From a virus, in IMG/VR virus record IMGVR_UViG_3300047564_000073, positions 1-21,764 of that record: a stretch of DNA of 21,764 nt; one strand, written 5' to 3'. This document shows positions 1 through 18,154 of this stretch, one piece after another. The translations under genes and the position numbers were made by a program. Position 1 is the first letter of the stretch, and each line of letters begins with the position of its first letter. A model generated the notes under the pieces. It searched no databases and was not told the origin of the DNA. It was given only the letters and a program-made list of their open reading frames with translations.

Positions 1-34
1 CCATTGGGGGGTGATGTATTATCATCCGGAAATC

Positions 35-505
35 ATGAACAAAAAACCACCAGAACTTCACATCGTTGACGGAACGACACCACGCAAGGGATTCCCCACC
101 GCGTTGCCCGACAACATTAAAAAAAGAATTCCTCGCGCCGAGTGGGTGGACAATCCTGCGGCTTGGGATAAAAATAAATTCATCGAAGAAACCGCCGAGT
201 TTTTATATAGCGTTTACGGCATTGGTAATGACCAAGACAAACACACGCTTGCAATGCTTGCCGACCATATCGAAACCTATGTGCAATGCACAGCCGCAAT
301 TAAAAAAGGCGGTGTTATTACCAAGTTCAATAACGGGCAAACTGTAGGACCAAACCCTTACCTATCTGTGCGCAATAAAACTATGACGCTCATAATCCAA
401 ATTATGAATGAACTAGGGTTAACCCCACGCAGTAGGTTATCTGCCGGCAAAGCCGAGGAGGATAGCCCTGTCGCACAATTCCTGCGAGGACCATTTGCAC
501 AATGA
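35..505 (+). CDS. terS: Terminase small subunit, P27 family
   Basis: Small terminase: recognises phage DNA and delivers it to the large subunit for packaging. The family call rests on the N-terminal ELHIVDGTTPRKG segment, the preference for a TerL gene immediately downstream, and the C-terminal NPYLSVRNKT...MNELGLTPRSR block, which is typical of P27-type small terminases (usually about 130-170 residues; 156 here). The start is uncertain. The frame is open back to the left edge, with GTG at 11 and ATG at 14 sitting almost on top of the GGGGGG run. I chose ATG 35 because MNKKPPELHIVDG lines up with the usual start of the family. An extension beyond the window cannot be excluded. The stop overlaps the terL start in ATGA, so the two are probably translationally coupled. 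A packaging initiation site would normally lie just upstream, outside the window. Confidence 0.85.
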   Translation: MNKKPPELHIVDGTTPRKGFPTALPDNIKKRIPRAEWVDNPAAWDKNKFIEETAEFLYSVYGIGNDQDKHTLAMLADHIETYVQCTAAIKKGGVITKFNNGQTVGPNPYLSVRNKTMTLIIQIMNELGLTPRSRLSAGKAEEDSPVAQFLRGPFAQ

Positions 506-2172
506 ATTGGCAAGACGGGGTAGCGTATGCACACGCAGTGGCAAAAGGCGAAATTAATGTCTGTAACGATGTTCGTCTGTCGTGTCAAAGATTTATAAAT
601 CAACTGGAAAACAAAGAATGGGAATGGGTATTTGACCATCGAGTGCCCGACCATGTTTTAAAGTTCGCGGGAACACTACAGCATACTAAAGGACCACAAG
701 CCGGTGAGCCGGTACTATTAGAGCCGTTTCAAATTCTGCTTATTTGCGCGACCTATGGGTTTAGGTCAAAAAAGGATTTAAACAAACGCATGGTCACGGA
801 TGTGATTTTGTTTATTCCACGCAAGGCGGGTAAATCTACCCTTACCGCGGTACTGTGTTTATACGAATTGTTATGCGGGGAAAGTGGACCTGAGGTTTAT
901 ACACTGGCAACAAACAGGGAGCAAGCCACGATTGTGTTTGATGCTTCCAAAGGTTTTGTGGAAAATATGCCCCGCGACCTAGCGACCTTGTTTAACCCAA
1001 GTAAATACAACATTAGTAAAAAAGGCGATACGCAGTCAATTTTTAAAGCGTTAAGCCGCGACACTAAAAAGTCTGGTGACGGTAAAAACCCGTCATGCGT
1101 AGTCGTTGATGAATCGGCTCAGATTACAGACCGTAACGCAATTGAAGTATTACATTCAGGCATGGTTGCTAGGCAGAACCCGTTGAGGGTGTATATTACA
1201 ACTGCCTCGTTCACAAAGGACACCAAGTTTTATGAGGACTTGTCCATGTATCAATCGATGCTTCGTGGCGAGGCGACTGATAACCCTAGATGGTTTGGTT
1301 TAACGTATGGCCTAGACCTTGGTGATGATTGGCGAGACCCAGTTAATTGGGCAAAAGCCAATCCGATGCACGGAATATCTGTTTATGAGGATGCCATTGC
1401 ACAACGGGCAGAGGAAGCAAAGCATAAGCCAGCCGCGCTGAATGAGTTTTTGTGTAAAACACTAAACGTATGGGTTTCTGCTAATGCGGCATGGCTTGAC
1501 AGAGCGCATTGGGATGACTCTGCTTGTGCAATAGTGCCAAGAACAAAAGAACCTGAGGCGGTATTTATTGGCTTTGACTTGGCGGCAACGCGAGATTTAA
1601 ATGCAGTTTGCACATTAAAGCGTTACGGAGAATTGGACTACGAGGCAGAATGGCAGTTTTTCTTGCCTGAGGAAAGCCTAGCGTTTATACCTAAACACTA
1701 CCTTGATATTTTTCAAGTGGCGATTGCAAGCGGGATTTTAAAATTAACCGAAGGTAACGTAATGGATGATCGCGAAATTAGCGAGTACATCATTAATCAG
1801 CAGTGCCAAAAGTACAATGTTAAAGAGGTAGGTTATGACGCATACAATGCCGCAAGTTTAGTTGCTCGTTTGCACGATGCAGGGGTTCCAGTTAAAAAAG
1901 TAGGCCAAGGCATGGCGGTTTTAAACAATCCAAGCAAATACATTGAAAAATTGATACTGAACAAGCAAATTAAGCATAGCGGCAACCCTTTTGTGGGCTG
2001 GCAACTAGGCAACTGCGAATGCTATACGGATGTCAACGGCAACATTAAGGTGCGCAAGAACGAAGCCGACAAAGCGGCAAAGGTTGACGGAATCATATCT
2101 ATGATTATTGCGGCACATTGCTCATTGGATAACCCATTTGTGAGTGATAGTTTTGGTTTTCGGTCGTTTTAA
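502..2172 (+). CDS. terL: Terminase large subunit (ATPase/nuclease)
   Basis: Packaging motor and DNA-cutting enzyme, which docks on the portal during genome packaging. The 556-residue length is normal for HK97-type (Terminase_1) large subunits. The ATPase domain shows Walker A PRKAGKST at about residues 106-113, Walker B CVVVDE at about 199-204 and a TTAS coupling motif at about 233-236. The RNase H-like nuclease domain shows acidic residues in order: D359 in GFDLA, D446 in GYDAYNA and D529 in KVDGIIS. All core motifs are intact, so it should be active. The start ATG overlaps the terS stop (ATGA) and has GAGGA at 486-490. No HNH endonuclease gene is visible beside it, but the left edge cuts off the usual location. 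Confidence 0.96.
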   Translation: MNWQDGVAYAHAVAKGEINVCNDVRLSCQRFINQLENKEWEWVFDHRVPDHVLKFAGTLQHTKGPQAGEPVLLEPFQILLICATYGFRSKKDLNKRMVTDVILFIPRKAGKSTLTAVLCLYELLCGESGPEVYTLATNREQATIVFDASKGFVENMPRDLATLFNPSKYNISKKGDTQSIFKALSRDTKKSGDGKNPSCVVVDESAQITDRNAIEVLHSGMVARQNPLRVYITTASFTKDTKFYEDLSMYQSMLRGEATDNPRWFGLTYGLDLGDDWRDPVNWAKANPMHGISVYEDAIAQRAEEAKHKPAALNEFLCKTLNVWVSANAAWLDRAHWDDSACAIVPRTKEPEAVFIGFDLAATRDLNAVCTLKRYGELDYEAEWQFFLPEESLAFIPKHYLDIFQVAIASGILKLTEGNVMDDREISEYIINQQCQKYNVKEVGYDAYNAASLVARLHDAGVPVKKVGQGMAVLNNPSKYIEKLILNKQIKHSGNPFVGWQLGNCECYTDVNGNIKVRKNEADKAAKVDGIISMIIAAHCSLDNPFVSDSFGFRSF

Positions 2173-2202
2173 TGTAGTATTGCGGAAACTTTGGAGAAAA
2201 TC

Positions 2203-3597
2203 ATGGGCATTTTGGATGTTTTTAGTAGAAAAAAGAGCGTTCAAAACGAATCAAATACGGTTCTTGGACAGTTACAACTGGGTAACCAAGTTGTTATGGG
2301 GCAGAATCGACAACAGCCCTCGCAACAATTACTCTATGTAACAACGTCTAGCACTACGACAGCGGGTCGAGTATTGGACATGTCTGCGTTAACTCGCAAC
2401 TCCACAGTGATGGGATGCGTTGGTGTAAAGGCTCGCGCTATATCTCAATGCGGCATTTCCATCATGGCAAAGAATAAAGATGGTGCTTTAGTTGATGCTT
2501 TGCTAGACCCTAACATTGGCTCACGCGATAAAGGCAAAGCGCAACAAGTTTTAAACCTATTACAAAATCCAAACAATTTTCAAAGCGCATACGAGTTTTG
2601 GTATCAATGGATGATGTGGCAAGACCTTGCCGGTGAGACATTCACTTTGTGGTGGCGCAAAGACCAAAAAGACCCTGTGCAAACGCCCATTGAGATGTAC
2701 AACATGGATGCGACACTGGTAACAGTTAAGTTAAATCCGGGCAATTACCCATCGTACGTACTTAGTTCGCCATCGTATGGGTTTAGCAAAGATACGCCTT
2801 TGGACGCGCATCAAATCATGCACATTAAAGAGGCGGCATGGCAAGGCTCATCAGGCTTTAATAAAGGCATTTTGGCTACGGAATTGATTGCTCTTGACCA
2901 AGACATCGATATTTACGCCAACTTTATTATGCAAAACGGAGCAAAACCCTCCGGTATTTTTAAAACTGACCAAGTAATTCCTGATGCAAAATACAAGGAA
3001 ATTGCCTCGCGTATTAAGGAAACTTGGAACCAAATGACGGGCAGTCGCGGCACAGACCCGTCAAAATCTGGTCAGGGTATGTTACTTGACCAAGGCATGA
3101 CGTATGAAAGCATTGAGATGCTTAATTTGCAAGATGCTGATGCGGCAAAGTTAAAAGAACAAACAATGAAGCGCATTTGTGGCGTATTTGGTGTACCGCC
3201 CGCAATGATTGGCATTGCCGACCAAAAATATAATAATACGCAAACAATGTTGGATGAATTTTACAAAACCGTGATGTATCCAACGGTAATTAGCATTGAG
3301 CAAAAGTTAAAACAGCATTTGTTTAAGGGTTACCCAAACCTTTGTGTACGCTTTGATACCAAAGATTTTTTAAAAGGCGCACCGCTTGACCAAATGAATT
3401 TCGTGACAGCCGCAGTAAAAGCAGGCATCATGACGCCTAATGAAGCACGTATGTATTTAAATATGCCTATTATTGAGGGCGGTGATGCACTACAATCGGG
3501 TGGCTCATCAGATAAGCCTATTGCGGGTACATCTCCACAGGACACGGGCGGTGGCGGTGGTAATCAGACGCGAAAAATGAATATAGGTACAACATGA
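2203..3597 (+). CDS. Portal protein, HK97 family
   Basis: Forms the dodecameric portal ring at one capsid vertex, the channel for DNA and the docking site for terminase and connectors. At 464 residues it is the usual size for an HK97-type portal. Recognisable features are the MGILDVFSRKK start, the VMGCVGVKARAIS helix near residues 69-81, GETFTLWWRK near 144-153, and FGVPPAMIGI near 329-338 followed by a long helix ending in YPTVISIEQKLKQ. The frame is open further upstream to a TTG at 2191, but ATG 2203 is preferred: GGAG at 2193-2196 sits six bases upstream and gives the typical N-terminus. The C-terminal tail is Gly/Ser-rich (GGGGGN) and likely disordered. Confidence 0.95.
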   Translation: MGILDVFSRKKSVQNESNTVLGQLQLGNQVVMGQNRQQPSQQLLYVTTSSTTTAGRVLDMSALTRNSTVMGCVGVKARAISQCGISIMAKNKDGALVDALLDPNIGSRDKGKAQQVLNLLQNPNNFQSAYEFWYQWMMWQDLAGETFTLWWRKDQKDPVQTPIEMYNMDATLVTVKLNPGNYPSYVLSSPSYGFSKDTPLDAHQIMHIKEAAWQGSSGFNKGILATELIALDQDIDIYANFIMQNGAKPSGIFKTDQVIPDAKYKEIASRIKETWNQMTGSRGTDPSKSGQGMLLDQGMTYESIEMLNLQDADAAKLKEQTMKRICGVFGVPPAMIGIADQKYNNTQTMLDEFYKTVMYPTVISIEQKLKQHLFKGYPNLCVRFDTKDFLKGAPLDQMNFVTAAVKAGIMTPNEARMYLNMPIIEGGDALQSGGSSDKPIAGTSPQDTGGGGGNQTRKMNIGTT

Positions 3598-3619
3598 TTG
3601 CAAAAAAACTTGCAATTTT
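3597..3619 (+). other. Hairpin with T-run after the portal gene
   Basis: Immediately after the portal stop there is a perfect 7-bp inverted repeat, ATTGCAA (3597-3603) and TTGCAAT (3610-3616), with loop AAAAAC, followed by TTT. It is A/T-rich and short, so at best a weak terminator or processing site. It opens the 120-base gap (3598-3717) between portal and protease, the longest intergenic gap in the window. A second 5-bp inverted repeat, CGAGT/ACTCG, lies at 3637-3641 and 3650-3654. I see no convincing promoter in the gap. Confidence 0.3.
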
Positions 3620-3717
3620 GGCTTCACAAATTCGAACGAGTAATGTTACACTCGGCACAATAGAGAAGCCCCACAAGATAAGAGACGACAATCAATCTAT
3701 CCACAATGGGGTGATAA

Positions 3718-4542
3718 ATGAAGAATTACACGCTAATTTGCGAAGCGCAAGTCCAACTAGCGACAAGCGCAAACGAGGCAGAAAATCCATCGGGAATGAT
3801 GGAAGCCCGAGTAACAACTTGGGGCGCACGCGAGGGTGCTGACGGTCGCAAGTTTAATTATCAGCCCGAAGGTTTTATGGATTGGGCTGAGGCGTTTAAT
3901 TCCGGTGATAAACCATTGCCAATGTTTCTTAATCACAACGACCTTGGCATGCCAATGGGCGAGTGGAATTCATTTGAATTTGACGACCAAGGCATGACCG
4001 CTAAAGGTCGCTTGTACACTAATACTGTTGGCGGTAACGACCTATATCAAATCCTTAAAGAATCACCAAATATGTTTGGTGGTGTTTCTGTTGGCGCATA
4101 CGCTGACGAAGCCTGTTGGGTAGATGCAGAAGGAAATCCTTTTGAAAATGGTCCCGATGGAACTATGTATTCAAACCCTGATTTTGATTATGAAACAGCG
4201 TTTTTTCAAATCACTAAGGGCGGACTGCGCGAAGTATCCGTCGTTATGTACCCTAACAATCCCAATGCGGAAATTAACAAATTAGAGATGTTTAGCACCG
4301 AAGGCGTGTTAAATATCCGAACAGTCGAAAAGACCTTGCGTGAGGCGGGTCTGACTCGTAAGGATGCGACCACCGCATCTTTGGTATTCAAGAAAGCAAT
4401 TGAACAGCGTGAGGCAGTTCAAAAGCCAATTGAATCTCTACCAACTCAGGGTGAGCCTGATGCGGTGGTAAACGAAGCCGACGCATTACTTGCCGCTTTT
4501 GAAGCGCGTGAGTTGGTGAAGGCACTTGAAAAACGTATCTAA
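3718..4542 (+). CDS. Prohead maturation protease (U35/S78-like)
   Basis: Serine protease packaged inside the procapsid that removes the capsid delta domain during maturation. The catalytic-type motifs are in the family order: His73 in PMFLNHNDLG, Ser124 in GGVSVGAY and Glu172 in LREVSVVMYPNNPNAEI. The C-terminal part (from about residue 197) has the helical NIRTVEKTLREAGLTRKDA segment common in these proteases. An in-frame TAA directly precedes ATG 3718, so this is the longest possible start; GGGG at 3708-3711 is six bases upstream. It lies between portal and capsid gene as in HK97. Its clear substrate is the first capsid protein, which carries a delta-like extension. The second capsid paralogue offers little to cleave. 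Confidence 0.92.
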   Translation: MKNYTLICEAQVQLATSANEAENPSGMMEARVTTWGAREGADGRKFNYQPEGFMDWAEAFNSGDKPLPMFLNHNDLGMPMGEWNSFEFDDQGMTAKGRLYTNTVGGNDLYQILKESPNMFGGVSVGAYADEACWVDAEGNPFENGPDGTMYSNPDFDYETAFFQITKGGLREVSVVMYPNNPNAEINKLEMFSTEGVLNIRTVEKTLREAGLTRKDATTASLVFKKAIEQREAVQKPIESLPTQGEPDAVVNEADALLAAFEARELVKALEKRI

Positions 4543-4546
4543 AGGA
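4541..4546 (+). promoter_or_regulatory. Strong ribosome binding site of capsid gene 1
   Basis: AAAGGA, seven bases upstream of ATG 4554. It is a near-consensus Shine-Dalgarno sequence that overlaps the protease stop codon, and it fixes the capsid start against the second ATG at 4560. It suits a very abundant protein. Confidence 0.6.
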
Positions 4547-4553
4547 AATTATT

Positions 4554-5903
4554 ATGTCTATGGATAAAGTATTGGAAAAAGTTGACGCGATTGCCGTGTC
4601 TAACGAATCCAAAATCGAAGCGGTGAAAGCCGAAGTTGCAACCACTGTGGAATCCGCAAAAGCCGAGTTGACTGAAAAGTTTGCCGCTTTGGAAGCCAAA
4701 GTTTCTGCTATTCAAATCCCTGAGTACATTCGTACACCACACAAAACTGTTCGCGGTGACGTTAATCGTCGCGTGCGTGAGCAATTGGCTTCTTTTACAA
4801 AAGGTAACAGCCGTGTTCAAACAGAATTAAAAATGTGGGAATCCGATGACCAATATCAAGCGTACATGACTGAGGCATCAACCCTCACAGGTTCCGGTGC
4901 TGGCATTGGTGGTCGTACAGCGTATGACCCTGTGTTTCACAAACTGCGTTTGATTAACCCAATGCGCGGCGTGTCACGTAATGTTTCTACTGATGGTTCA
5001 TCCTACCAGTTCAGAGCAAAAACGGGCAACGCGGGTGCGGCTTGGGGATATACAATCCAAAACAACGGTGCGGTTACAACTGAAGCCACATCTATTTGGC
5101 AATTGAATATGCAAGACATCAACGTTCAGTTCCCTATCCGTACTGCGGCTTTGGATGACATTGATGGTTTAGAAGCCAACGTTGTTGACGACATGCTCCA
5201 AGAATTTTCGGAGCAAGAAGGCTTGTCAATGATAAAAAACAACGACCAAGCCGGTTCAACCACCACAGCATACGGTGCGACGAATGGTTTGCGAGGTTTA
5301 AATCAGTACGGCGGTGATAATGCTTCATACGCGGGCGGCACTATCAGTACAGCATCGTATGGTACAAGCGGCACTGCTTCAACCAATGGTTTGCACAACA
5401 TTGCAACATACGACCAAGTAACCACAAACGGTGGCACTGCTTCCAATAATGTGACATACGGTGATTTGATTACATTCATTCACTCATTGCCACAGCAATA
5501 TTGGTCAACTGGTAATTGTTTTGTTATTAACCCATTGATGCTTGCTGGCATCCGTGGTTTGGTTGATGACAACGGCACACCAGTGTTTGAACGTATGTCT
5601 CCGCTAATCTATGATGGCATCGTTGGCAAATTGCTAGGCTTTGATGTGGTGGTTAACTCCTACTTAAATAGCCCTGTGTCTGTTGGCGGTGGTGGTTCTA
5701 CATCGTTGTACCCAATGTACTTCGGTGATTGGAATCGCGGTCATACAATCGTAGACAGGTTGAACATGGTTCTACGTCGCTACGAACAAACGGCTCCCGG
5801 ATTTATCACATTTTTCGGAGAAAAAAGATTAGCCACCAGCGTGGTCGATCCTTTTAGTATTATTCGTTATCGTTCAACTGCTACTGGTTACGACGTATCG
5901 TAA
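4554..5903 (+). CDS. Major capsid protein with delta/scaffold domain
   Basis: HK97-fold shell protein. Residues 1 to about 55 are rich in Ala, Glu, Lys and Val and strongly predicted by eye to be helical/coiled-coil (IEAVKAEVATTVESAKAEL). Together with the following segment, about 107 residues precede the conserved EASTLTGSG block, close to the 102-residue HK97 delta domain, so this region is likely an internal scaffold removed by the upstream protease. The mature part includes IGGRT, NNDQAGSTTT (residues 229-238), GLRGL and the C-terminal YEQTAPGF (410-417) followed by EKRLATSVVDPF, typical of HK97-type capsid proteins. A Gly/Ser/Thr-rich stretch (about 253-297) may be a surface insertion. 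The gene is followed by a hairpin and then a paralogue. Whether the HK97 cross-linking residues are present cannot be judged without structural alignment. Confidence 0.93.
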   Translation: MSMDKVLEKVDAIAVSNESKIEAVKAEVATTVESAKAELTEKFAALEAKVSAIQIPEYIRTPHKTVRGDVNRRVREQLASFTKGNSRVQTELKMWESDDQYQAYMTEASTLTGSGAGIGGRTAYDPVFHKLRLINPMRGVSRNVSTDGSSYQFRAKTGNAGAAWGYTIQNNGAVTTEATSIWQLNMQDINVQFPIRTAALDDIDGLEANVVDDMLQEFSEQEGLSMIKNNDQAGSTTTAYGATNGLRGLNQYGGDNASYAGGTISTASYGTSGTASTNGLHNIATYDQVTTNGGTASNNVTYGDLITFIHSLPQQYWSTGNCFVINPLMLAGIRGLVDDNGTPVFERMSPLIYDGIVGKLLGFDVVVNSYLNSPVSVGGGGSTSLYPMYFGDWNRGHTIVDRLNMVLRRYEQTAPGFITFFGEKRLATSVVDPFSIIRYRSTATGYDVS

Positions 5904-5910
5904 GACTGAA

Positions 5911-5938
5911 GGGGAGGGGTAAAACTCTCCCCTCTTTT
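5911..5938 (+). terminator. GC-rich hairpin plus T-run between the capsid genes
   Basis: Two alternative stems are possible. GAGGGG (5914-5919) can pair with CCCCTC (5929-5934), directly followed by TTTT. Alternatively GGGGAGGG (5911-5918) can pair with CTCTCCCC (5925-5932), with one G-T wobble. This is the only convincing intrinsic-terminator-like element in the window. Because only 22 bases separate the T-run from the next start codon and the next genes are essential, it probably acts as a partial attenuator or mRNA-stabilising 3' end of the first capsid message. That role is inferred. Confidence 0.6.
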
Positions 5939-5959
5939 AATCTTTAAGGAATTATCAAA

Positions 5960-6979
5960 ATGAGTGCAAACCAAAGAATTTTAGACGGCATCAAAAAAGC
6001 AATTAACGAGGGCGGTAAAGTCACCATTGATTTGCGTGAAGCCTCGACAATTACTGGTTCGGGTCTGGACATTGGTGGTCGCACTTATTTTGATGATGCT
6101 TTCACGGCATTGCGTCTTGCAAACCCTTTCCGCATGGGTTCACGCAACATTAAAACCGAAGATAGTTCGGCTGTGCAATTTGTTGCCAAAACGGGTAACG
6201 CAACAAGTGCAAATCCATGGGACCCTAATGCAACGCCTGACACGGGTTCACCAAACACCGCTACGTCGTTTTGGGTAATGCCCACACGCATTATTGCCGC
6301 AACATTGCCCGTTCGTATTGCCGCTATGGATGATATTAACGGCTTGCAAGATGCTTTGTTGACAGACCTTGCGTTGGAATTTTCGCAACAAGAAGGCGCG
6401 TCAATCGCTACGAACAATGACCAAGCGGGTTCAACAACAACGACAACAGGCGCGACTTATGGTTTGCGTGGTCTGAGTTCATACACAAGCGGTGGAACAG
6501 CCGCGTTTGGTTCAAGCGGTACTGCAATCACAAATGGCATTCACACGTTAGCAACTGTATCGCTTGGCGGCGTTGCTGTGACGTACAACAAAATTGTTGA
6601 CATTGCAAATGCATTGCCAGCGCAATATTGGTCATTGCCAACTACGGCGTGGCACATGACACCAACAATGATTCAAACATTGCGTCAATTAAAAGATACT
6701 CAGGGTTTACCATTGTTTTTGGAATTAGGTGAAGCGGGTGAAGGCGGCGCAGTCGGTTCTATCTTTGGATGGCCTGTTATTCCTAATTCTTTTCTTAATG
6801 CAACATTTCCAATTTATTTGGCAAATTGGGATAGATTCCTAACTATTGCTGATGTTGAGGAAATGGACATTCAAATATACGAACAGACCGCGCCCGGATT
6901 TTTAACAATGTATGCGGAGAAACGAGTTGCTACAACTGTACGTGACCCGTTTGCCGGTGTACGTGCAAGCGCGGCTTAA
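5960..6979 (+). CDS. Second HK97-fold capsid protein, lacking a delta domain
   Basis: Clear paralogue of the preceding capsid protein. Shared blocks in the same order are EASTITGSG (28-36), IGGRT, NPFRMGSRN, AAMDDINGL, EFSQQEG, NNDQAGSTTT (152-161), GLRGL, LPAQYWS, YEQTAPGF (307-314) and EKRVATTVRDPF. It has only 27 residues before the EAST block, against 107 in the first copy, so the delta/scaffold domain is missing and it may not need the protease. It is not a decayed copy: 339 codons are intact, all core blocks are kept, and it has its own AAGGAA ribosome binding site (5946-5951) nine bases before the ATG. Possible roles are a specialised vertex (pentamer) subunit like T4 gp24, a minor shell subunit, or a lineage-specific replacement. 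The sequence does not decide. Confidence 0.88.
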   Translation: MSANQRILDGIKKAINEGGKVTIDLREASTITGSGLDIGGRTYFDDAFTALRLANPFRMGSRNIKTEDSSAVQFVAKTGNATSANPWDPNATPDTGSPNTATSFWVMPTRIIAATLPVRIAAMDDINGLQDALLTDLALEFSQQEGASIATNNDQAGSTTTTTGATYGLRGLSSYTSGGTAAFGSSGTAITNGIHTLATVSLGGVAVTYNKIVDIANALPAQYWSLPTTAWHMTPTMIQTLRQLKDTQGLPLFLELGEAGEGGAVGSIFGWPVIPNSFLNATFPIYLANWDRFLTIADVEEMDIQIYEQTAPGFLTMYAEKRVATTVRDPFAGVRASAA

Positions 6980-6990
6980 GGGGCATATAA

Positions 6991-7653
6991 ATGGCAGTTG
7001 AGAACCAAACACTCGCGCCGTTTTATTCCGACCAACGGAATCCGTATAACTATTCTAAATTTGAGCAAGTTGACCGCGATGTTGCTACGCCTTGGCTGAC
7101 GCTAGAGGAAATTACGCAACAATTAAATTTGTTTGATGACGAAAGTCAGGATACATATTTAAAGTCGCTTGAACTTGCAACGCGCATGGCGATTGAGGAT
7201 TTTATTGGCGCGGCAATCTATCCCACAACATACAAGGTGTATTACCCTAACTTTGGGTTGTATAACACTGCGGTGTTTTTAGATTTGCCAGAGGTGGCGG
7301 TTACGGCTTATAACTCGGTCGGTGTATCGATTGATGCTGTTGAGTTTTATTCAACGTCAAACACTGTGCCAGTATTGATTGCGGCAACAAATTATTCCTA
7401 CGACCCAACGGGTAACAGAATAATATTGAATACAATTCCTAATACATTAAACCAAACTGTAGCCAATCCAATCGTTGTAACGTACACGCAAAATTCTGCG
7501 TTTATTTCGACTTACCCAGTTATTAAACAAGCGGCATTAATGTTGTTAACGCACTTGTACAACAATCGTTCAAATACGACAGATTCAATGTTGCGTGAAG
7601 TACCTTTTGGTGTGGCAACGTTGCTTCGCCCGTACAAACCTTTGGTGATGTGA
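6991..7653 (+). CDS. Head-tail connector, gp6-like adaptor
   Basis: Ring protein that binds below the portal and starts the neck. The N-terminal half has the adaptor pattern TPWLTLEEITQQLNLFDDESQDTYLKSLELATRMAIEDFIG (shown as in residues about 34-72; helical bundle), and the C-terminal end, with VIKQAALMLLTHLYNNRS, is the second helical block of gp6-like (Phage_gp6/QLRG) adaptors. Between them is a beta-rich, Asn/Thr/Val-rich segment that makes it longer (220 residues) than HK97 gp6 itself. AAGGGG at 6978-6983 precedes ATG 6991 by seven bases. The next start lies one base after its stop. Confidence 0.8.
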   Translation: MAVENQTLAPFYSDQRNPYNYSKFEQVDRDVATPWLTLEEITQQLNLFDDESQDTYLKSLELATRMAIEDFIGAAIYPTTYKVYYPNFGLYNTAVFLDLPEVAVTAYNSVGVSIDAVEFYSTSNTVPVLIAATNYSYDPTGNRIILNTIPNTLNQTVANPIVVTYTQNSAFISTYPVIKQAALMLLTHLYNNRSNTTDSMLREVPFGVATLLRPYKPLVM

Positions 7654-7654
7654 C

Positions 7655-7999
7655 ATGGGTATTGCCCGCTTTGAAAACATCCGAGTAAACCAATTAACCT
7701 TTGGCGCGAGTTCCTTTGGTGAGCAATCTACGACTATTACAAAATGGTTTGATACAAGGGCGCGTGTTTCGTCAGTGGCTAATAGCGTACGTATTTCAGA
7801 AAAGTATCGCGTTTATGCCGACATTGTAGAGTTCACATTGAATTACACGCCAAACACAAAAACGATTGTCGATAGCCAAAACCTGTATTCGATTGCTTAT
7901 AGAAGCGCAAACTGGCGCATTGATAGTGTGCGTGAATCAAATGACCGCATGACCGTTAAATTGCTTTGCGTGCGTAACGACCCTGTGGTGGCAGTATGA
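7655..7999 (+). CDS. Head closure protein (head-tail joining, gp7-like)
   Basis: Probable head-closure/stopper protein of the neck, sitting between adaptor and tail terminator. At 114 residues it has the length and all-beta pattern of the Phage_H_T_join family, with a KYRVYADIVEFTLNYTP strand pair near residues 49-65 and a C-terminal NWRIDSVRESNDRMTVKLLCVR segment, similar to the usual arrangement of a strand ending in a final basic beta-hairpin. The gene position (second after the capsid genes, before the terminator) matches HK97-type order. It starts one base after the previous stop, and its own stop overlaps the next start in ATGA. Confidence 0.68.
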   Translation: MGIARFENIRVNQLTFGASSFGEQSTTITKWFDTRARVSSVANSVRISEKYRVYADIVEFTLNYTPNTKTIVDSQNLYSIAYRSANWRIDSVRESNDRMTVKLLCVRNDPVVAV

Positions 8000-8418
8000 C
8001 AGCGCAAACAAATGTTGTTAATTACGGCAAAGCGATTCAATATCAATTGAACAGCATTGTTACGCCTATACCCGTATATGCCGCGTTTAACCGCAATTTT
8101 GCGACACAGCCTAAGTTTATTACATGGATGCTCAGAAACGTGCACCAAGACGTTTATACAGGCTCGTATCAGTCAGTTAAGGGCATCGACCGCCCCGTGT
8201 TTCAGATAAGTATCTTTACGCAAGTGATTGAAGATGGTTTTACAATTTCAAATCAGGTACTACAATCGCTACACGGCTATAGTGGTATGTTAGGAAATCC
8301 GGCTGACGGGGGTTTTTATATTTCCAAAGCGGATTGCCAGTGGCTGTATAACAGTTACGACAATGAGAATAAATTGGCTGAAATCTTTATTGATTGCACC
8401 ATAGATATTCCAACATAA
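7996..8418 (+). CDS. Putative tail terminator/completion protein
   Basis: Likely the protein that caps the tail tube and joins it to the neck. I recognise it mainly by position (between head closure and tail tube) and by layout: 140 residues, an N-terminal helix (NYGKAIQYQLNSI), then PIPVYAAFNRN, a central strand PVFQISIFTQVIEDGF and a C-terminal strand ending TIDIPT. This layout is as in DUF3168/gp17-type completion proteins. No catalytic residue pattern is expected or seen. The start overlaps the head-closure stop (ATGA), which suggests coupled translation. It is followed by a 36-base leader containing a T-run and the tail tube ribosome binding site. Confidence 0.6.
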   Translation: MTAQTNVVNYGKAIQYQLNSIVTPIPVYAAFNRNFATQPKFITWMLRNVHQDVYTGSYQSVKGIDRPVFQISIFTQVIEDGFTISNQVLQSLHGYSGMLGNPADGGFYISKADCQWLYNSYDNENKLAEIFIDCTIDIPT

Positions 8419-8434
8419 GACACGATTTTTTCAA

Positions 8435-8454
8435 CTCTTTAAAGGAAACTCAAA
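8435..8454 (+). promoter_or_regulatory. Tail tube gene leader with strong ribosome binding site
   Basis: The leader contains AAAGGAA (8441-8447), eight bases before ATG 8455. It resembles the leader of the second capsid gene (5938-5959): both have TCTTTAA, GGAA and TCAAAATG in the same order. This is consistent with high expression of a structural protein. Confidence 0.5.
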
Positions 8455-8949
8455 ATGGCTTTACCAACAAAAATTTTGCCCGGCTTTAGTGCAACGCTAT
8501 ACGCACAGCCAACCTCAACACCAACGCCTCTAACAACTGCGGCATTGTCCACTTACGCTACCGTTTCTGCCTTGGCAGTTTCTGGTAACTTAGTGCCCGT
8601 TGAGGCTATTCCTGCATTTGGCCAAGATGATGCTGTTGCGTCATTCGGCATTGCGGGTTCACGCCAATCGGACAAAATTCCTGTGCAATCCGCGCCGACA
8701 AGTATGAGCATTACAGCCGCTTGGAATCCTAGCGACACAGTTTTGTTATTGCTTCGTGGTGATGCTTATAACGGCACGATTGACCGCACGTTTATTATCT
8801 CTGCTACCGATGGTACAGGTATCGTAAATTACGCGTTTAATGGTCGCGTTAGCCAATGGACTATTGACTCCGCGCCCGGAGCCGAGGCTAAGGTTAATTT
8901 TACGATTCATCCTCGTGGTAATCAATACGGCTGGTCTGCCAGTGCTTAA
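8455..8949 (+). CDS. Major tail protein (tail tube subunit)
   Basis: Predicted to polymerise into the hollow tail tube. At 164 residues it lies in the normal range for siphovirus tube proteins. It begins MALPTKILPGFSATLYAQ and is Ala/Thr/Ser-rich and beta-strand-like throughout. It has a FIISATDGTGIVNYAFNGRV segment (shown as in residues about 109-128) before a final beta-hairpin ending HPRGNQYGWSASA, which fits the single-domain tube fold. Position supports the call: it follows the terminator and precedes the chaperone/tape-measure block. The strong dedicated leader also fits a very abundant protein. No extra C-terminal Ig-like domain is present. The assignment is by pattern and context rather than by a diagnostic motif. 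Confidence 0.78.
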   Translation: MALPTKILPGFSATLYAQPTSTPTPLTTAALSTYATVSALAVSGNLVPVEAIPAFGQDDAVASFGIAGSRQSDKIPVQSAPTSMSITAAWNPSDTVLLLLRGDAYNGTIDRTFIISATDGTGIVNYAFNGRVSQWTIDSAPGAEAKVNFTIHPRGNQYGWSASA

Positions 8950-8951
8950 TT

Positions 8952-9149
8952 ATGACCACTGATGACGCAGTAACATTGCTGACCAGTACCTACTTGCCCT
9001 TAGACCTTGTGGTCAGGGGCATGGAGTTAGACCCTAAAGAAGTGGCTGATGCTTTGGCAAACGCTACGGCGGGGTCGGAACAACAAACTGCATTACAGTT
9101 TTTGGCATCATACTTCCCGTATGCACCAACCAAAAAAATAAAAGAATAA
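8952..9149 (+). CDS. Small protein of unknown function
   Basis: I do not recognise this 65-residue acidic protein. It is Ala/Thr/Leu-rich, probably helical (SEQQTALQFLASYF), and ends in a short basic tail KKIKE. It starts two bases after the tail tube stop. It lies in the same reading frame as the next gene, separated only by TAA-AAC, so the two could be halves of one ancestral gene or a stop-codon readthrough pair, but each has its own ATG. The neighbourhood (tail tube upstream, gp10-like and chaperones downstream) suggests a tail assembly role. This is inference only. Confidence 0.6.
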   Translation: MTTDDAVTLLTSTYLPLDLVVRGMELDPKEVADALANATAGSEQQTALQFLASYFPYAPTKKIKE

Positions 9150-9152
9150 AAC

Positions 9153-9377
9153 ATGACTACGACAATAAAAGACAGTAACGATTTATTAGGTTTCCTAGTA
9201 AGCCAAGCCGAATCTCGCAAAGATTGGTTTGGCTTTTCTCAGCAACGCATGACAGCGGTAACGCTTGCGCATCAAATTGCACAGCATCATGCTGACAAGA
9301 TGACACCCGATGAAGTCGTAGATTACGCACTGCAAGTCAATCACCTTATATTTCATAAAATTATTAAGGCGGGATAA
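9153..9377 (+). CDS. Small protein of unknown function
   Basis: Not recognised. The 74-residue protein looks wholly helical, with a polar first half (SQAESRKDWFGFSQQR) and a His-rich middle (AHQIAQHHADK). It ends in a VDYALQVNHLIFHKIIKAG helix. There is no signal peptide or metal-site pattern beyond the clustered histidines. It shares the reading frame of both neighbours: TAA-AAC-ATG before it and TAA-ACC-ATG after it. The upstream ribosome binding site is weak, so translation may depend on coupling. Its place between the tail tube and gp10-like genes suggests a tail-module accessory role, but nothing shows its function. Confidence 0.6.
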   Translation: MTTTIKDSNDLLGFLVSQAESRKDWFGFSQQRMTAVTLAHQIAQHHADKMTPDEVVDYALQVNHLIFHKIIKAG

Positions 9378-9380
9378 ACC

Positions 9381-9947
9381 ATGCGAGCATCTTTCAACAT
9401 CGTTGGATTGAAGGATGTGCTTGCCGCGTTTGATGATTTGGCAGACCAAATTGGCGATAAAAAAGCCACTAGTAAAATTCTTGTCCCATCGGTACGCGAA
9501 GCAATGCAACCTGTACTAAATGAGGCTCGCGCACGTGTGCCCGTAAATACAGGTGGTCTTAAGTTATCCCTGCAAATTGAGGCGCGACGCCCTACAAGAC
9601 GTGATAAGCGGTCTAAATATATAACCGAAACTGATACTGTCATTGCGTCAGTTACCACGGCATCGGGTAAAAAACTAGCCAAAATGAGTGAGGGTAAGGG
9701 TTTGCTAAAAGCCAAAAAGCGTCTTGCCGCAATGGAAGGTGATGCACACGTAGGCGCGTATCGTGCAAATAAATTTCAAGGCATTAAAAGCGATGCTCGG
9801 GCAATAGCGCAAGAGTTTGGTTCTGCACACAATGCCGCACATCCTTTTTTACGAACTGCAATGGAAGGCCAAGCCCCACAAACCGCCAAAAGGCTTGGTG
9901 AAATTATCGGTAGGCGGATAACACAATACAAGGCAAAACAGAAATGA
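9381..9947 (+). CDS. HK97 gp10-like tail component
   Basis: Member of the HK97-gp10-like family of tail/neck proteins. Diagnostic segments are the N-terminal LKDVLAAFDDLADQI helix, ARVPVNTGGLKLSL (residues about 51-64) and EFGSAHNAAHPFLRTAME (about 145-162). These are the NTG(G/A)L and HPFLRPA-type blocks of the family. At 188 residues it is longer than the common 110-150, owing to a basic middle stretch around residues 95-140. In HK97 the homologue is encoded before the tail tube gene; here it lies three genes after it, next to the chaperone genes. Its stop overlaps the next start (ATGA), so it is likely co-translated with tail chaperone G. Confidence 0.8.
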   Translation: MRASFNIVGLKDVLAAFDDLADQIGDKKATSKILVPSVREAMQPVLNEARARVPVNTGGLKLSLQIEARRPTRRDKRSKYITETDTVIASVTTASGKKLAKMSEGKGLLKAKKRLAAMEGDAHVGAYRANKFQGIKSDARAIAQEFGSAHNAAHPFLRTAMEGQAPQTAKRLGEIIGRRITQYKAKQK

Positions 9948-10426
9948 CAAAATTTTCCAGTGCGTTTGGCGACAAATATCAAGCCAACAGAAAGAACCTT
10001 TTAATTCGTACGTTTGAATTAGGTGGTCATACATTTAAAGTTCGTATTCCATTGGTTGCAGAATCAGAGGCAATATACAAAAAAGTATCCGACCCTGATG
10101 ACAAAACCATAGAGAGAATTTACGTACAAATTACCGCGCCTTTAAGACAGTTTGAGGCAACTCAGGCTGAGAATTTTCAATTCACCGATAACGACATCTT
10201 GGTTGAGGGTCGCTCAATGCGAGAGGCGGCTAAAAACAAGGCTATTACAGAGGCTCGTATTACCGAGTTTTTTAAACTGCTTGTTCCTGAACTAGAGGGC
10301 GCAAGCCTTGACGATTTAACCTATGACGATATTGAGCAAGAGTTTCCTATATCTGTGCAGATGCAAATAGTGGAAAAAATTGGTGAAGTGATTAGCCCAA
10401 GTTATAGGGAAGCGCGGGGAAACTAA
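9944..10426 (+). CDS. Tail assembly chaperone, G-like
   Basis: Lambda G-type chaperone that coats the tape measure protein while the tube polymerises; it is not part of the virion. Identification rests on position just before the tape measure gene, size (160 residues; lambda gpG is 140), an acidic helical C-terminal half, and above all the slippery heptamer G GGA AAC at 10417-10423 read immediately before its TAA stop. Most ribosomes should terminate here and yield this product. A fraction should slip by -1 and yield the longer G-T fusion. The sequence starts MTKFSSAFGDKYQ and has a GGHTFKVRIPLVAESEAIY strand-helix segment. Its start overlaps the gp10-like stop. Confidence 0.78.
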   Translation: MTKFSSAFGDKYQANRKNLLIRTFELGGHTFKVRIPLVAESEAIYKKVSDPDDKTIERIYVQITAPLRQFEATQAENFQFTDNDILVEGRSMREAAKNKAITEARITEFFKLLVPELEGASLDDLTYDDIEQEFPISVQMQIVEKIGEVISPSYREARGN

Positions 10427-10474
10427 TACGCTCGTTAAAAAGCCAGTGTCAAGCGGCAATGATTTTTAACGGGC
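10417..10474 (+). promoter_or_regulatory. Programmed -1 ribosomal frameshift site (slippery heptamer and stem)
   Basis: Slippery heptamer GGGAAAC (10417-10423), phased X XXY YYZ in the G frame and followed at once by the G stop TAA. Six bases further on, GCTCGTTAAAAA (10430-10441) pairs with TTTTTAACGGGC (10463-10474). This 12-bp stem has one wobble pair and encloses a 21-base loop that can itself form a GCC/GGC stem. Lambda uses GGGAAAG at the same place. The phase, spacing and downstream structure all fit -1 frameshifting. Confidence 0.85.
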
Positions 10475-10788
10475 ATACCTTAGAGACAATACAAGACATT
10501 GATGACGTAACCATGGCGCACATACAGACGATGTATGCCGATGGCTTGGTTGGAAATTATGGCGTGCTGACGCAAATAGCGACCCTGACAAACGGGGTGT
10601 TTAACTATATGCGACCTGCAAATTCACCGCCTTATAAACTAGCCAACGTGCTTGGGAGTGCGTATGATTACATTTATCCACCGTTGCCTGAAAGCAGTAA
10701 ACAAGCGGCTGTTAACGATAGCCTTTTAATGTTTATGACGCAGGCGCAGGGGTTTGATAAAAAATTGTTTGAGGTAAAACATGGCTAA
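10423..10788 (+). CDS. T portion of the frameshifted tail chaperone G-T
   Basis: This is the downstream half of the G-T fusion, read in the -1 frame from 10423. The full product would start at 9944 and reach the stop at 10786-10788, giving about 281 residues, close to lambda gpGT (279). The -1 frame is open from just after a TAG at 10405-10407, so the slip must happen between there and the G stop, exactly where the heptamer lies. An ATG at 10459 exists but has no good ribosome binding site and lies inside the loop of the frameshift stem, so independent initiation is unlikely. The T domain would bind the tail tube protein and bring it to the chaperone-coated tape measure. The last eight bases overlap the tape measure start. 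Confidence 0.82.
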   Translation, partial: LIRSLKSQCQAAMIFNGHTLETIQDIDDVTMAHIQTMYADGLVGNYGVLTQIATLTNGVFNYMRPANSPPYKLANVLGSAYDYIYPPLPESSKQAAVNDSLLMFMTQAQGFDKKLFEVKHG

Positions 10789-12832
10789 TATGATTGCCCG
10801 CCTTGGCGTTGTTCTAGGCTTAGATTCTGCGGAGTTTAGCCGTGGGTTAGATTCGGCTGGCAAAAAACTTGAACAGTTTAGCCAAGCCGCAGAAAAGTAT
10901 GGAAAAATTGCCGCAGTTGGTATGGTTGCGGCAGGAATTGCGGCAGTTAGATACGCTGATGAACTGTTTGATGTTGCCGAAGCCAATGAAGTGGCTATTG
11001 GTACAGTTTTAAAGTTATCAAATGCTTTGCAAGATTCAGGCGGCAAAGCCGACAACGCGGGCAAGATGCTATCAGCGTTTGCAAAGTTTATTGATGAAGC
11101 CGCAGGGGGTTCAGAGAAGGCGCAAAAAACTGCTAAAGAATTAGGCATTAGTTTACAGGACTTGGGGAAACTTTCCCAAGAAGAATTGCTAAACAAATTG
11201 GTTGCCAACTTAGCCAAAGTTGAAGACCCAATCACGCGAAACGCCAAGGCAATGGAAATATTTTCCAAAGCCGCCAAGGGTGTTGATATGGTTGGTTTTG
11301 CCGACAAGATAGCGCAAGCCAATCCATTGATTGAAGAACAAGAAAAAGCAATCAAAGCCGCGGCAGATGTAATGGAATTTTTTGAGAAAACTTCCCGCGA
11401 TGTCATGTTGGTATTGGCTACAGAATTAGGACCAATCCTAAAGTCAACAGTTGATTACATGAAAACAATGAGTGACTATGGCGTGTCACTTAGCGGTATT
11501 TTTAAAACTGTATTTCAAACGGTTGCGGTTTTAGGTTCTGAAGTTGGTTATTTCTTTAAAGCAATTTTTGATGAAATTGGACACACATACAACAACGCGG
11601 TTATCTTAGTAACCAAAGGCGTTGATGCCGCAATTGAAGCAAACAAAAAATACAACAATTCTGTTTTAGCGCAAAGAATCCAATTAGATTTATACCAAGC
11701 GCAAGTAATGGGAGTTCCCCAATACGGAAATGCAATTGATGCGTTAGCGTTAAGTGGTGGGTCAAAATCTAAAGCGTCAAGTGGCGGCGGTAGAAAAGTA
11801 ACTGATGCCGATGAAAAAGAAAGACAGAAAAAAGCGGAAGAAGCAAAAAAAGAAGCAAAGCGTTTAGAAGAAGCCGCAGAAAAAGCAAGATTGCGGGCAT
11901 TGGAAAAATACTTTAATGAACTGCAACGCTTAGACAAGATTTTGTTAGACATTGCTAACAAAGAAAATAGTGCATTTACAGATTCACTTAGACGAATTGA
12001 AAATGAAGAAGCGGCATTAAAAAGTAAAAACGGTTTGTTTCAACTTGAACAGCAAATTAAAGATATGCGTTCTGAAGAAATACAGTTGAATAGAGAACTG
12101 TATATGCTTGACCAACAAAGACTGCAAAACATTAGAGAAATAAACCGCAACAATGATTTAGAAGCCGAAGCCAAACATTATTTGATTCAACTACAAAACG
12201 AACTAACAGAATCAAGTAATAAATATGTTGAAGCGCAATACAACGCGGCATTAGCGCAACGCAAAGGCACATTTGAGGAAGGCTTTACCAAGTCGATGAA
12301 GGCATTTTTGCGTGACCTACCTACGGAATTGGAAATTGGCGCAAAAACTTTTGAATCAGTCATGGGCAATATGGAATCTGCCATTGACAGATTTGTTAAA
12401 ACAGGCAAGATTGGTTTTAAAGATTTAGCCAAAAGCATTATCCAAGACATGATAGCGATACAAATGAAAGCCGCGGCTTCTAATTTTCTAAGTTCGATGT
12501 TTGGGTCTATGTTTGGTACTCGTGCAAATCCGTATCAACCAGCGGCAATGGCGGGCGTTCCCGGATATGCTGATGGCGGCTCCCCTTCGGTGGGACAAGC
12601 AAGCATTGTTGGTGAACGTGGACCCGAATTGTTTGTGCCAAGAACGGCTGGAAGCATAATCCCCAATCACGCATTGGCGGGCATGGGTGGCACTACGATG
12701 GTGACAAACAATTACATTAACGCCATAGATACCAAATCGTTTGAGGAACGCTTGTACGGCAGTTCTAACGCGATATGGGCGGCAAATCAGTACGCTAACA
12801 AATCGTTGGCGGTGAACAGGGGTCGGGCATGA
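10781..12832 (+). CDS. Tail tape measure protein
   Basis: Scaffold that sets tail length and is ejected into the host envelope during DNA injection. It has 683 residues. The N-terminus, MANMIARLGVVLGLDSAEF, is typical of the family, and a hydrophobic Ala/Gly-rich segment lies at about residues 43-56. A Glu/Lys/Ala-rich coiled coil spans about 342-385, with further helices to about 485. A lambda H-type C-terminal domain (FEEGFTKSMKAFLRDLPTE, then FKDLAKSIIQDMIAIQMK) covers about 498-575. Next comes the widespread ADGG...VGERGPELFVP motif at about 595-620. By the usual rule of about 0.15 nm per residue the tail would be near 100 nm (inference). The start has GAGG at 10771-10774 and overlaps the G-T gene by eight bases. 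No muramidase or peptidase insert is visible. Confidence 0.95.
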   Translation: MANMIARLGVVLGLDSAEFSRGLDSAGKKLEQFSQAAEKYGKIAAVGMVAAGIAAVRYADELFDVAEANEVAIGTVLKLSNALQDSGGKADNAGKMLSAFAKFIDEAAGGSEKAQKTAKELGISLQDLGKLSQEELLNKLVANLAKVEDPITRNAKAMEIFSKAAKGVDMVGFADKIAQANPLIEEQEKAIKAAADVMEFFEKTSRDVMLVLATELGPILKSTVDYMKTMSDYGVSLSGIFKTVFQTVAVLGSEVGYFFKAIFDEIGHTYNNAVILVTKGVDAAIEANKKYNNSVLAQRIQLDLYQAQVMGVPQYGNAIDALALSGGSKSKASSGGGRKVTDADEKERQKKAEEAKKEAKRLEEAAEKARLRALEKYFNELQRLDKILLDIANKENSAFTDSLRRIENEEAALKSKNGLFQLEQQIKDMRSEEIQLNRELYMLDQQRLQNIREINRNNDLEAEAKHYLIQLQNELTESSNKYVEAQYNAALAQRKGTFEEGFTKSMKAFLRDLPTELEIGAKTFESVMGNMESAIDRFVKTGKIGFKDLAKSIIQDMIAIQMKAAASNFLSSMFGSMFGTRANPYQPAAMAGVPGYADGGSPSVGQASIVGERGPELFVPRTAGSIIPNHALAGMGGTTMVTNNYINAIDTKSFEERLYGSSNAIWAANQYANKSLAVNRGRA

Positions 12833-13425
12833 GTTTCCAAACCATTTTTGATATACAGCAATCCATGACGGTTAACAATCGTCGCATGGTCGGACAACAA
12901 GTCGCACGTAGCGGTTACATCACCGTGGCGCAATATTTAACTGCTGTGCCATGGGTGTTTACGATTCAACCCCATGCATACCTTTATTACCCGCAAGTGC
13001 GCGATGTAATACAAAGCATTGATAACAAAGACAGACAATTGCCAGAACAAATCAGTTTTGCAAGTACAAATTTGCAATGGTTTGTAAAGATGCGCGGAAC
13101 TGCTACGGCGGCAACATTAAACGGCGCACCCGCGGCTAATACGCAAACGCTTGCGTTAACGTCTAACGGCACGTTTAAAGCGGGCGATTTTATTATGGTG
13201 GGCGGTTATGTTTACAAAATAACTGCTGACAGCGCGGGTTCATCCGTAGGGATTCATCGACCATTGATTGGCACGCCATCATCGGGTACAACTGTGTTTT
13301 TGGGAACTGCTTGTACGTTTAACGTCGTGGCAGAAGAATGCCCAACGTACACGTTAAATCCAATGACGGACGGCGCGTTTGTGCAATGGGATTCGCCATT
13401 TGTTTTTAGAGAATACATCGTATGA
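12829..13425 (+). CDS. Putative distal tail protein (tip module)
   Basis: Not firmly recognised. The 198-residue, mostly beta-type protein lies directly after the tape measure gene, where lambda-like phages place gpM or the distal tail (Dit) protein. An N-terminal part of about 95 residues (SFQTIFDIQQSMTVNNRRM; TVAQYLTAVPWVFTIQPHA) is followed by a repeat-like beta domain. That domain carries TQTLALTSNGTFKAGDFIM and GYVYKITADSAGSS, a fold pattern often seen in tail-tip and fibre proteins (a small carbohydrate- or tube-binding domain). It ends with a hydrophobic VQWDSPFVFREYIV segment. The start overlaps the tape measure stop and the stop overlaps the next start, both as ATGA, indicating a tightly coupled tip operon. 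Confidence 0.6.
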   Translation: MSFQTIFDIQQSMTVNNRRMVGQQVARSGYITVAQYLTAVPWVFTIQPHAYLYYPQVRDVIQSIDNKDRQLPEQISFASTNLQWFVKMRGTATAATLNGAPAANTQTLALTSNGTFKAGDFIMVGGYVYKITADSAGSSVGIHRPLIGTPSSGTTVFLGTACTFNVVAEECPTYTLNPMTDGAFVQWDSPFVFREYIV

Positions 13426-14066
13426 CAACAATCAACGCGGTAACGGGCACACAAATAAACCATGCGGAATTTGTAAAACTTACTGTTGGTATTGCGGGAA
13501 CGGTTTACACATTTTGCAACGCCGCCGCACCCATCACGGTTGGTGGTAACACGTTTACAAATCTTGGTGCATTGTTAAACGTAGGCGACGTTCAACGCGA
13601 TATTAAGGCAACGTCTGACGACATGACAATAGCGTTGACTGGCATTGATTCTGCAAACGTAGCATTGATTTTAAGTAGCGACATTAAAGGTTCATTGGTT
13701 GAAGTATGGCGCGGGTTCTTTGATTCAAACAACCAAATTATTACTACGCCTACGACGCAATTTTTTAAACGCTATCAAGGCATTATTAACAGCGTTTCAA
13801 TCACAGAAGATTTCAACACCGAAGCGCGAACACGCATTGCAACTTGTTCCATTTCATGTTCATCAATGCGCCGTATATTGGAAAACCGATTGTCGGGCGT
13901 TAAGACCAATCAAAACAATTGGCAATTTATTTACGCGGGTGACACGTCAATGAATCGTGTAAGCGAAATATCCAATACGTTTTTTGATTTTGGTTCACCA
14001 CCAAAAACACAAACACAAGCAAGCGAAACAACAATTACTGTAGATGAGAATGAATTTAGAGCATAA
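13422..14066 (+). CDS. Putative tail-tip/hub protein (lambda L-like position)
   Basis: A 214-residue protein resembling DUF2163-type or other minor tail proteins in layout. The N-terminal HAEFVKLTVGIAGTVYTFC is followed by a strand-rich TVGGNTFTNLGALLNVGDV. Then come IALTGIDSANVALILSSDI, a GSLVEVWRGFFDSNNQIIT segment, and a C-terminal part with conserved-looking RYQGIINSVSITEDF and CSISCSSMRRILENRLSG. It ends with DTSMNRVSEISNTFFDFG. Four cysteines occur (C32, C145, C149 and one nearby by count of the segment), but I see no clear Fe-S spacing as in lambda gpL, so equivalence to L is positional only. Coupled to the upstream gene by ATGA. The acetyltransferase-like gene starts two bases after its stop. 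Confidence 0.6.
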   Translation: MTTINAVTGTQINHAEFVKLTVGIAGTVYTFCNAAAPITVGGNTFTNLGALLNVGDVQRDIKATSDDMTIALTGIDSANVALILSSDIKGSLVEVWRGFFDSNNQIITTPTTQFFKRYQGIINSVSITEDFNTEARTRIATCSISCSSMRRILENRLSGVKTNQNNWQFIYAGDTSMNRVSEISNTFFDFGSPPKTQTQASETTITVDENEFRA

Positions 14067-14068
14067 AC

Positions 14069-14515
14069 ATGATAAGACCGGCATCAAAATACGACATTCC
14101 AAGATTGCTTGAAATTGTGGAGGCTTATGCTTATGAAAACCCTATTAAAAAACTTGGTGATTCTTGTAACCACTTTCCTCGGTATGTTGAGCAACTTTTG
14201 TTCGAAATTATTAGTGGTCGTGGTTTCATTTTCATTGATTCCAATTTACGCGGTGCAATTGTTGCTTACAAAAGTTCGAACATTTGGTCGCCGAAAGTAA
14301 AAGAATTAAACGAATTGCTTTGGTGGGTAGAACCCGAACATCGCAATGGAACAGTTGGCGGCAGATTATGGAAAGCGTTTGATGAACGCGCACAGGCTAT
14401 GTTAAAAGCGGGTGATGTTGATTTTGTTTGCACATCAATCTCGGCAAATGGTCCTTGGATTGATTACACGCGCAGGGGTTATAAATCCCTTGGCGCAACT
14501 TTTGTTAGGGAATAA
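14069..14515 (+). CDS. GNAT-family acetyltransferase-like protein in the tail module
   Basis: A 148-residue single-domain protein with the GNAT order. It has an N-terminal strand-helix MIRPASKYDIPRLLEIVEAY, a central strand with GRGFIFIDSNLRGAIVAYKS, and ELLWWVEPEHRNGTVGGRLW (residues 83-101). The last segment corresponds to the acetyl-CoA-binding strand and pyrophosphate loop, followed by helix KAFDERAQAMLKAG. The C-terminal DYTRRGYKSLGATFVRE resembles the GNAT end motif (Y-x-x-x-G-F/Y). The loop is a degenerate version of the Q/R-x-x-G-x-G/A signature, so activity is probable but not certain. It sits between tip genes, where lambda carries the K peptidase and I genes, and no NlpC/P60 gene is seen. 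Substrate unknown: a virion protein or a host molecule are both possible. Confidence 0.78.
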   Translation: MIRPASKYDIPRLLEIVEAYAYENPIKKLGDSCNHFPRYVEQLLFEIISGRGFIFIDSNLRGAIVAYKSSNIWSPKVKELNELLWWVEPEHRNGTVGGRLWKAFDERAQAMLKAGDVDFVCTSISANGPWIDYTRRGYKSLGATFVRE

Positions 14516-14517
14516 AA

Positions 14518-17304: not shown

Positions 17305-17307
17305 ATT

Positions 17308-17583: not shown

Positions 17584-17613
17584 TAAACTAACGGCAAGAC
17601 AAGACACCATTCC

Positions 17614-17627: not shown

Positions 17628-17657
17628 TTGTTCGACCTATGTATAGGGAACGCTAAC

Positions 17658-18143: not shown

Positions 18144-18154
18144 GGGGTAAAAAA

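Follow-up and report, generated by a model that had tools for sequence, protein, structure and literature searches.

In HK97-type phages, one scaffold-fused capsid protein builds both hexons and pentons, and the task of the scaffold under each of these capsomers is unsettled. In HK97, the scaffold has a tower part (residues 2-66), a trimeric coiled coil of which each hexon has two, and a spoke part (residues 76-103) with a helix-turn-strand structure; the towers contact the portal, and there is no substantial interaction between the penton subunits and the scaffold domains around regular penton vertices (PMC10275583). An arrangement of hexon and vertex paralogs is already known from T4: the vertex protein gp24 is thought to derive from gp23 by duplication and loses a propeptide of 10 residues, and gp23 loses one of 65 (PMC9958956). 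Two HK97-fold paralogs in one shell are also found in the Family 2B encapsulins (Streptomyces lydicus; 9BJE/9BIX) (PMC12407261). A search of the open-access literature returned no report of two capsid genes in HK97-type phages, which is not proof of absence.

Two HK97-fold capsid genes in one head operon

The window, by which we mean the whole stretch of DNA that was analysed, corresponds to a linear IMG/VR virus record of 21.8 kb. The two capsid genes, here called MCP1 and MCP2, lie in an ordinary head operon:

11..505, plus strand: terminase small subunit (Pfam Terminase_4 PF05119, 54.5 bits)
502..2172, plus strand: terminase large subunit (Pfam TerL_nuclease and TerL_ATPase; phrog_9, E 1.5e-131)
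2191..3597, plus strand: portal protein (Pfam Phage_portal, E 4e-61)
3718..4542, plus strand: prohead protease of the S78 family (Pfam Peptidase_S78, E 8e-8, above cut-off; phrog_3244 head maturation protease)
4554..5903, plus strand: MCP1, HK97-fold major capsid protein of 449 aa with a full N-terminal scaffold domain
5946..5950, plus strand: Shine-Dalgarno-like AAGGA of MCP2, from the sequence
5960..6979, plus strand: MCP2, HK97-fold capsid paralog of 339 aa without the coiled-coil scaffold
6991..7653, plus strand: head-tail connector Ad1 (phrog_40 head-tail adaptor Ad1; Pfam Phage_connect_1)

The two capsid reading frames are on the same strand, 56 nt apart, and both are intact; AAGGA precedes each of them, and a Shine-Dalgarno-like motif for MCP2 is present in 128 of 178 relatives. 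An earlier note on this DNA, which described the second gene as intact with a ribosome binding site of its own, was correct in this.

MCP1 and MCP2 are 44% identical over 338 columns (BLASTP, E 2e-76). Both exceed the cut-off of Pfam Phage_capsid (PF05065; 100.6 bits for MCP1 and 73.9 bits for MCP2, cut-off 24.2) and both match the PHROG annotation 'major head protein'. AlphaFold models, for which the row of isolate P19250A was left out of the inputs, have a mean pLDDT of 67 (MCP1) and 77.6 (MCP2). The MCP1 model aligns with the capsid protein of the Rhodobacter capsulatus gene transfer agent (RcGTA, 6TB9) with Z 19.6 and the MCP2 model with Z 21.4; for MCP2 and HK97 prohead I (8FQK), Z is 17.6. 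Foldseek likewise matched the two models to HK97-fold capsids (E 3.7e-16 and 6.6e-18), with a gene transfer agent capsid in first place. The RcGTA capsid protein Rcc01687 (6TB9, 6TBA), product of a single capsid gene, is the nearest solved structure to both proteins by fold and also by sequence profile (E 7e-11 and 3e-6). With Pfam matches above cut-off and predicted structures that fit HK97-fold capsids, the claim of two consecutive HK97-fold capsid genes, made in the earlier note from the letters alone, is borne out; the ordered blocks that it listed are present in both proteins, and its counts of about 107 (MCP1) and 27 (MCP2) residues ahead of the EAST block are right.

With HK97 gp5 the locus shares the terminase-portal-protease-capsid-connector order, the fused N-terminal scaffold (in MCP1), the fold and a putative terminator after the capsid gene, but it has two genes where HK97 has one for hexons and pentons. 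The likeness to T4 gp23/gp24 consists in the origin by duplication, the HK97 fold of both proteins and the much shorter N-terminal propeptide of the second protein. However, T4 has a separate scaffold core, whereas the scaffold is fused to MCP1 here, and the T4 pair has about 20% identity and forms a large prolate head, as opposed to 44% and a cultured member with a genome of 38.7 kb. The vertex position of gp24 is demonstrated in T4, and the likeness of MCP2 to it is a functional analogy only. The Family 2B encapsulins, in turn, are cellular compartments that form no virions, and their mixed shells have irregular tiling. That cultured member, Methylophilaceae phage P19250A (KX815270, complete genome), carries the same pair and a hairpin between the genes but has only 53-59% identity to the window proteins; it is the sole isolate found with the pair, and its MCP2 is annotated as 'hypothetical protein'. 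A similar synteny has been reported for OM43 phage Venkman (PMC8163748).

Two further genes of the window lie outside the head operon. Flanked by a baseplate-hub-like gene and the gene of the large tail protein, the tail module encodes a small protein that resembles GNAT acetyltransferases (14069-14515; match to phrog_1249 acetyltransferase with E 7e-10, Pfam match below cut-off); in P19250A the equivalent position is taken by an ORF of about the same length without annotation. The last ORF (18155-21763), repetitive and tail-fibre-like, has at least 1203 aa and continues past the end of the record. The repeats in this ORF are the probable cause of the minus-strand antisense ORFs in the same region.

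MCP2 lacks the scaffold tower and keeps a spoke

The two proteins differ at the N-terminus and in three loops:

4560..4709, plus strand: coiled-coil helix of the MCP1 scaffold, residues 3-52 (low-pLDDT AlphaFold secondary structure; missing from MCP2 in the alignments)
4749..4880, plus strand: MCP1 spoke/linker, residues 66-109 (alignment to HK97)
5963..6037, plus strand: helix and strand at the MCP2 N-terminus, residues 2-26 (matches HK97 scaffold spoke, residues 76-103)
5319..5342, plus strand: MCP1-only loop, residues 256-263, after the spine helix, deleted in MCP2
5421..5438, plus strand: MCP1-only loop, residues 290-295, deleted in MCP2
5682..5702, plus strand: MCP1-only loop, residues 377-383, deleted in MCP2

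The N-terminus of MCP1, where model confidence is low, is predicted to have a long helix (residues 3-52), a second helix (66-83) and a strand (90-92), and thus has both the tower and the spoke of a fused scaffold (delta) domain. For the first approximately 25 residues of MCP2, AlphaFold predicts a helix (3-17) and a strand (20-24) that resemble the spoke only, and the tower is missing in the MCP2 proteins aligned; accordingly, the MCP2 model aligns structurally from residue 2 to residue 339 with residues 76-382 of HK97 prohead I (8FQK). The description of MCP2 as lacking the delta domain, given in the earlier note, therefore applies to the coiled-coil tower (MCP1 residues ~1-65) but not to the spoke-like helix and strand, which are kept. 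The first mature residue of HK97, residue 104, aligns to MCP1 residue 110. The S78 protease is expected to remove the scaffold domain of MCP1, and from the alignment the cut is expected near residues 105-110; mature MCP1 would then begin near residue 110 and, at about 340 residues, be as long as MCP2.

The three loops were defined by class-specific columns in an alignment of 68 MCP1 and 68 MCP2 proteins, in which 50 positions are invariant across both. We infer that all three loops belong to the A-domain, at the centre of the capsomer. In one relative (L275) MCP2 has 413 aa, with about 70 inserted residues that follow the KTGNA block and are probably part of the E-loop.

The pair is widespread and results from one old duplication

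IMG/VR was scanned for relatives with either window protein, the P19250A proteins or a mixed alignment as query, using the best 80 matches per search; a single scan over contigs of bacterial and archaeal genomes contributed six relatives. Among these best matches, both genes are present at 298 of the 320 loci with a match. At the remaining loci the contig ends within or beside the pair, with the one exception of L154, which has an apparent MCP2 without MCP1; this MAG contig is most likely a chimera, in which a GC-rich bacterial stretch is joined to an MCP2 fragment. As some contigs were fetched repeatedly, the number of distinct complete pairs is 185, and the tandem that the earlier note had suggested looking for in other genomes is thus readily found. 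MCP2 is downstream of MCP1 in every one of these pairs, with a gap of 47-82 nt in 178 and an extra gene between the two in the other seven. The latter were considered as broken tandems and rejected, as MCP2 is still present beyond the extra gene. Among the matches listed, the tandem is a fixed feature of a large lineage of small tailed phages, mostly from freshwater.

The extra genes are of two kinds. In L321, L271, L280, L272 and L276, a protein of 101 aa is encoded after the hairpin, and the one tested matches phrog_2859 (unknown function). In L302 and L285, the gap has been invaded by genes of homing-endonuclease type (GIY-YIG-like and, by eye, HNH-like).

In a quick tree of the 68+68 rows, one branch with an SH-aLRT of 100 splits MCP1 from MCP2. 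When 11 single-copy outgroups were included in a more careful tree (among them HK97 and Pseudomonas phage VW-6S), MCP1 and MCP2 were sister clades (99/98; MCP1 clade 91/99); HK97 forms a long branch and its placement is unsure. MCP1 and MCP2 were produced by a single old duplication and, by these trees, MCP2 is a duplicate of the major capsid protein, as a dedicated penton protein would be. The single-copy outgroup sequences keep a scaffold-like N-terminal region, and the loss of the tower in MCP2 is therefore derived. dN/dS is about 0.09 in MCP1 as well as in MCP2 (31-32 close comparisons); each is thus under purifying selection, with a conserved job.

A conserved terminator-like hairpin separates the genes

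The gap between the two genes contains one more feature:

5910..5938, plus strand: intrinsic-terminator-like hairpin with GC-rich stem and T tract

It is the first entry in the list of terminator-like sites for window positions 1-18200. With one scan criterion, a terminator-like hairpin was found after MCP1 in 171 of 178 relatives, in comparison to a mean of 0.8 in shuffled sets; the same criterion found none in 177 stretches after MCP2 and one in 178 before MCP1. Hairpins are present in the remaining seven relatives too, with a weaker T tract or a longer distance. The stems are GC-rich with a median of 9 pairs, many loops are of the UUCG or GNRA type, and the 83 distinct hairpins have several pair types at each of seven inner stem pairs. 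The conservation of a terminator-like hairpin between capsid paralogs is a new observation. No promoter-like site was found in the MCP1-MCP2 gap.

The simplest reading of this predicted element is that MCP2 is probably made at a lower level than MCP1. The HK97 record has a putative terminator directly 3' of its capsid gene, and since the hairpin in the same way directly follows a capsid gene, MCP2 is placed on the low-copy side. Such a hairpin would lower all downstream genes, and the argument therefore gives an upper bound on MCP2 rather than a penton count. A hairpin following a capsid gene can also shield the mRNA 3' end. As a 3'-end stabiliser or processing site it would leave MCP2 as abundant as MCP1 and fit any role of the protein; the weak T tract in 7 of 178 relatives points in this direction, but the GC-rich stem, the many UUCG/GNRA loops and the T tract resemble intrinsic terminators, and we regard stabilisation as rather unlikely.

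MCP2 is exchanged as a cassette

The phages L061 and L099 are 94-100% identical in the upstream flank, in MCP1 and in about 3 kb downstream, and 87% identical in the block adjoining the MCP2 stop codon. Their MCP2 genes have 54-76% identity, from about 150 nt past the start to the stop. Four segments were compared across 152 loci, and a segment was called an outlier when it was at most 80% identical while the other three were at least 90% identical; these thresholds were set after the first case had been seen, and pairs inside a lineage are not independent. The outlier was MCP2 in nine of ten pairs (three lineages), the downstream segment in one, and never MCP1 or the upstream segment. In L173/L184, the third lineage, most of the change lies within the putative A-domain part of MCP2. 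Thus, in the set tested, phages that are nearly identical elsewhere have exchanged MCP2 alone, as a cassette, and never MCP1, which is also new.

It follows from these swaps that MCP1 works with quite different versions of MCP2. Strict co-evolution of the two proteins was expected and not seen: the identity of MCP2 correlates with that of its neighbours at 0.69-0.74, and the neighbours correlate with each other at 0.80-0.85.

Proposed roles of MCP1 and MCP2

The earlier note had offered a penton, a size-controlling minor subunit or a decoy as possible roles of MCP2. Of these the evidence favours the penton, although the position of MCP2 in the shell is one that we infer: lower expression is implied, the gene is under purifying selection, the trimer-forming tower is lost and T4 provides a precedent. 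We are inclined, with somewhat more confidence than doubt, to assign hexons to MCP1 and a dedicated penton subunit to MCP2, by analogy to T4 and as products of the one old duplication. MCP1 would be made in bulk with its fused scaffold; its coiled-coil towers would hold the hexamers together and touch the portal, and would then be cut off by the S78 protease. MCP2 would be made in smaller amount, owing to the terminator-like hairpin, and, towerless but with its spoke retained beneath the capsomer, would form the vertex pentamers, entering the shell by contact with MCP1. With trimeric towers at two per hexon, six subunits suit the scaffold and five cannot be divided into trimers. A point against this assignment is that a 63%-identical version of MCP2 can take its place while MCP1 stays unchanged, a looser relation than tightly interlocked neighbours would lead one to expect.

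A tentative extension, about which our doubt exceeds our confidence, is that a division into hexon and penton proteins arose here independently by stripping of the tower, with the penton gene serving as a single-gene exchange cassette under outside pressure (for example from defence or environment) and the hexon gene fixed.

The main rival to the hexon/penton reading is a mixed shell, in which MCP2 would enter hexamers, or both hexamers and pentamers, at a variable ratio and tune stability, curvature or surface. Family 2B encapsulins do co-assemble two HK97-fold paralogs with variable composition (PMC12407261), MCP2 retains the core fold, and the tolerated swaps suit a loose mixture. However, if the HK97 architecture applies, towerless subunits within hexons would break the two trimeric towers, and the three loop deletions of MCP2 fall in what is probably the A-domain, at the capsomer centre, so that we consider a mixed shell unlikely.

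Quite unlikely is a low-copy MCP2 that sets the size of the shell or marks the capsomers adjacent to the portal. The position of the gene would agree with this, past the hairpin, between capsid and connector genes and beside low-copy head-completion genes, but portal contacts in HK97 are made by the scaffold towers, and MCP2 has no tower; moreover, the P19250A genome is close in size to that of HK97 (39.7 kb) and needs no unusual shell size. That MCP2 stays outside the shell, as a decoy, as a capsid mimic that evades sensors (for example capsid-sensing host defences) or as an assembly-only protein, is very improbable: being the most often replaced segment it behaves as if under varying outside pressure, but a surface-exposed penton accounts for the swaps equally well, and its constant presence, its position in the head operon, the invariant positions shared with MCP1 and a dN/dS equal to that of MCP1 better suit a structural part.

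Whatever its place, a natural partner free of the tower permits a direct test of scaffold function. If MCP2 is the penton, scaffold towers would be required only for hexons and the portal, and the pair would be a second, apparently independent solution of the T4 type, in phages of much smaller size, one of them cultured. The 185 sequence pairs could be used to map hexon-specific and penton-specific residues, and exchange of the MCP2 cassette would point to the vertex as the place where such heads face changing selection.
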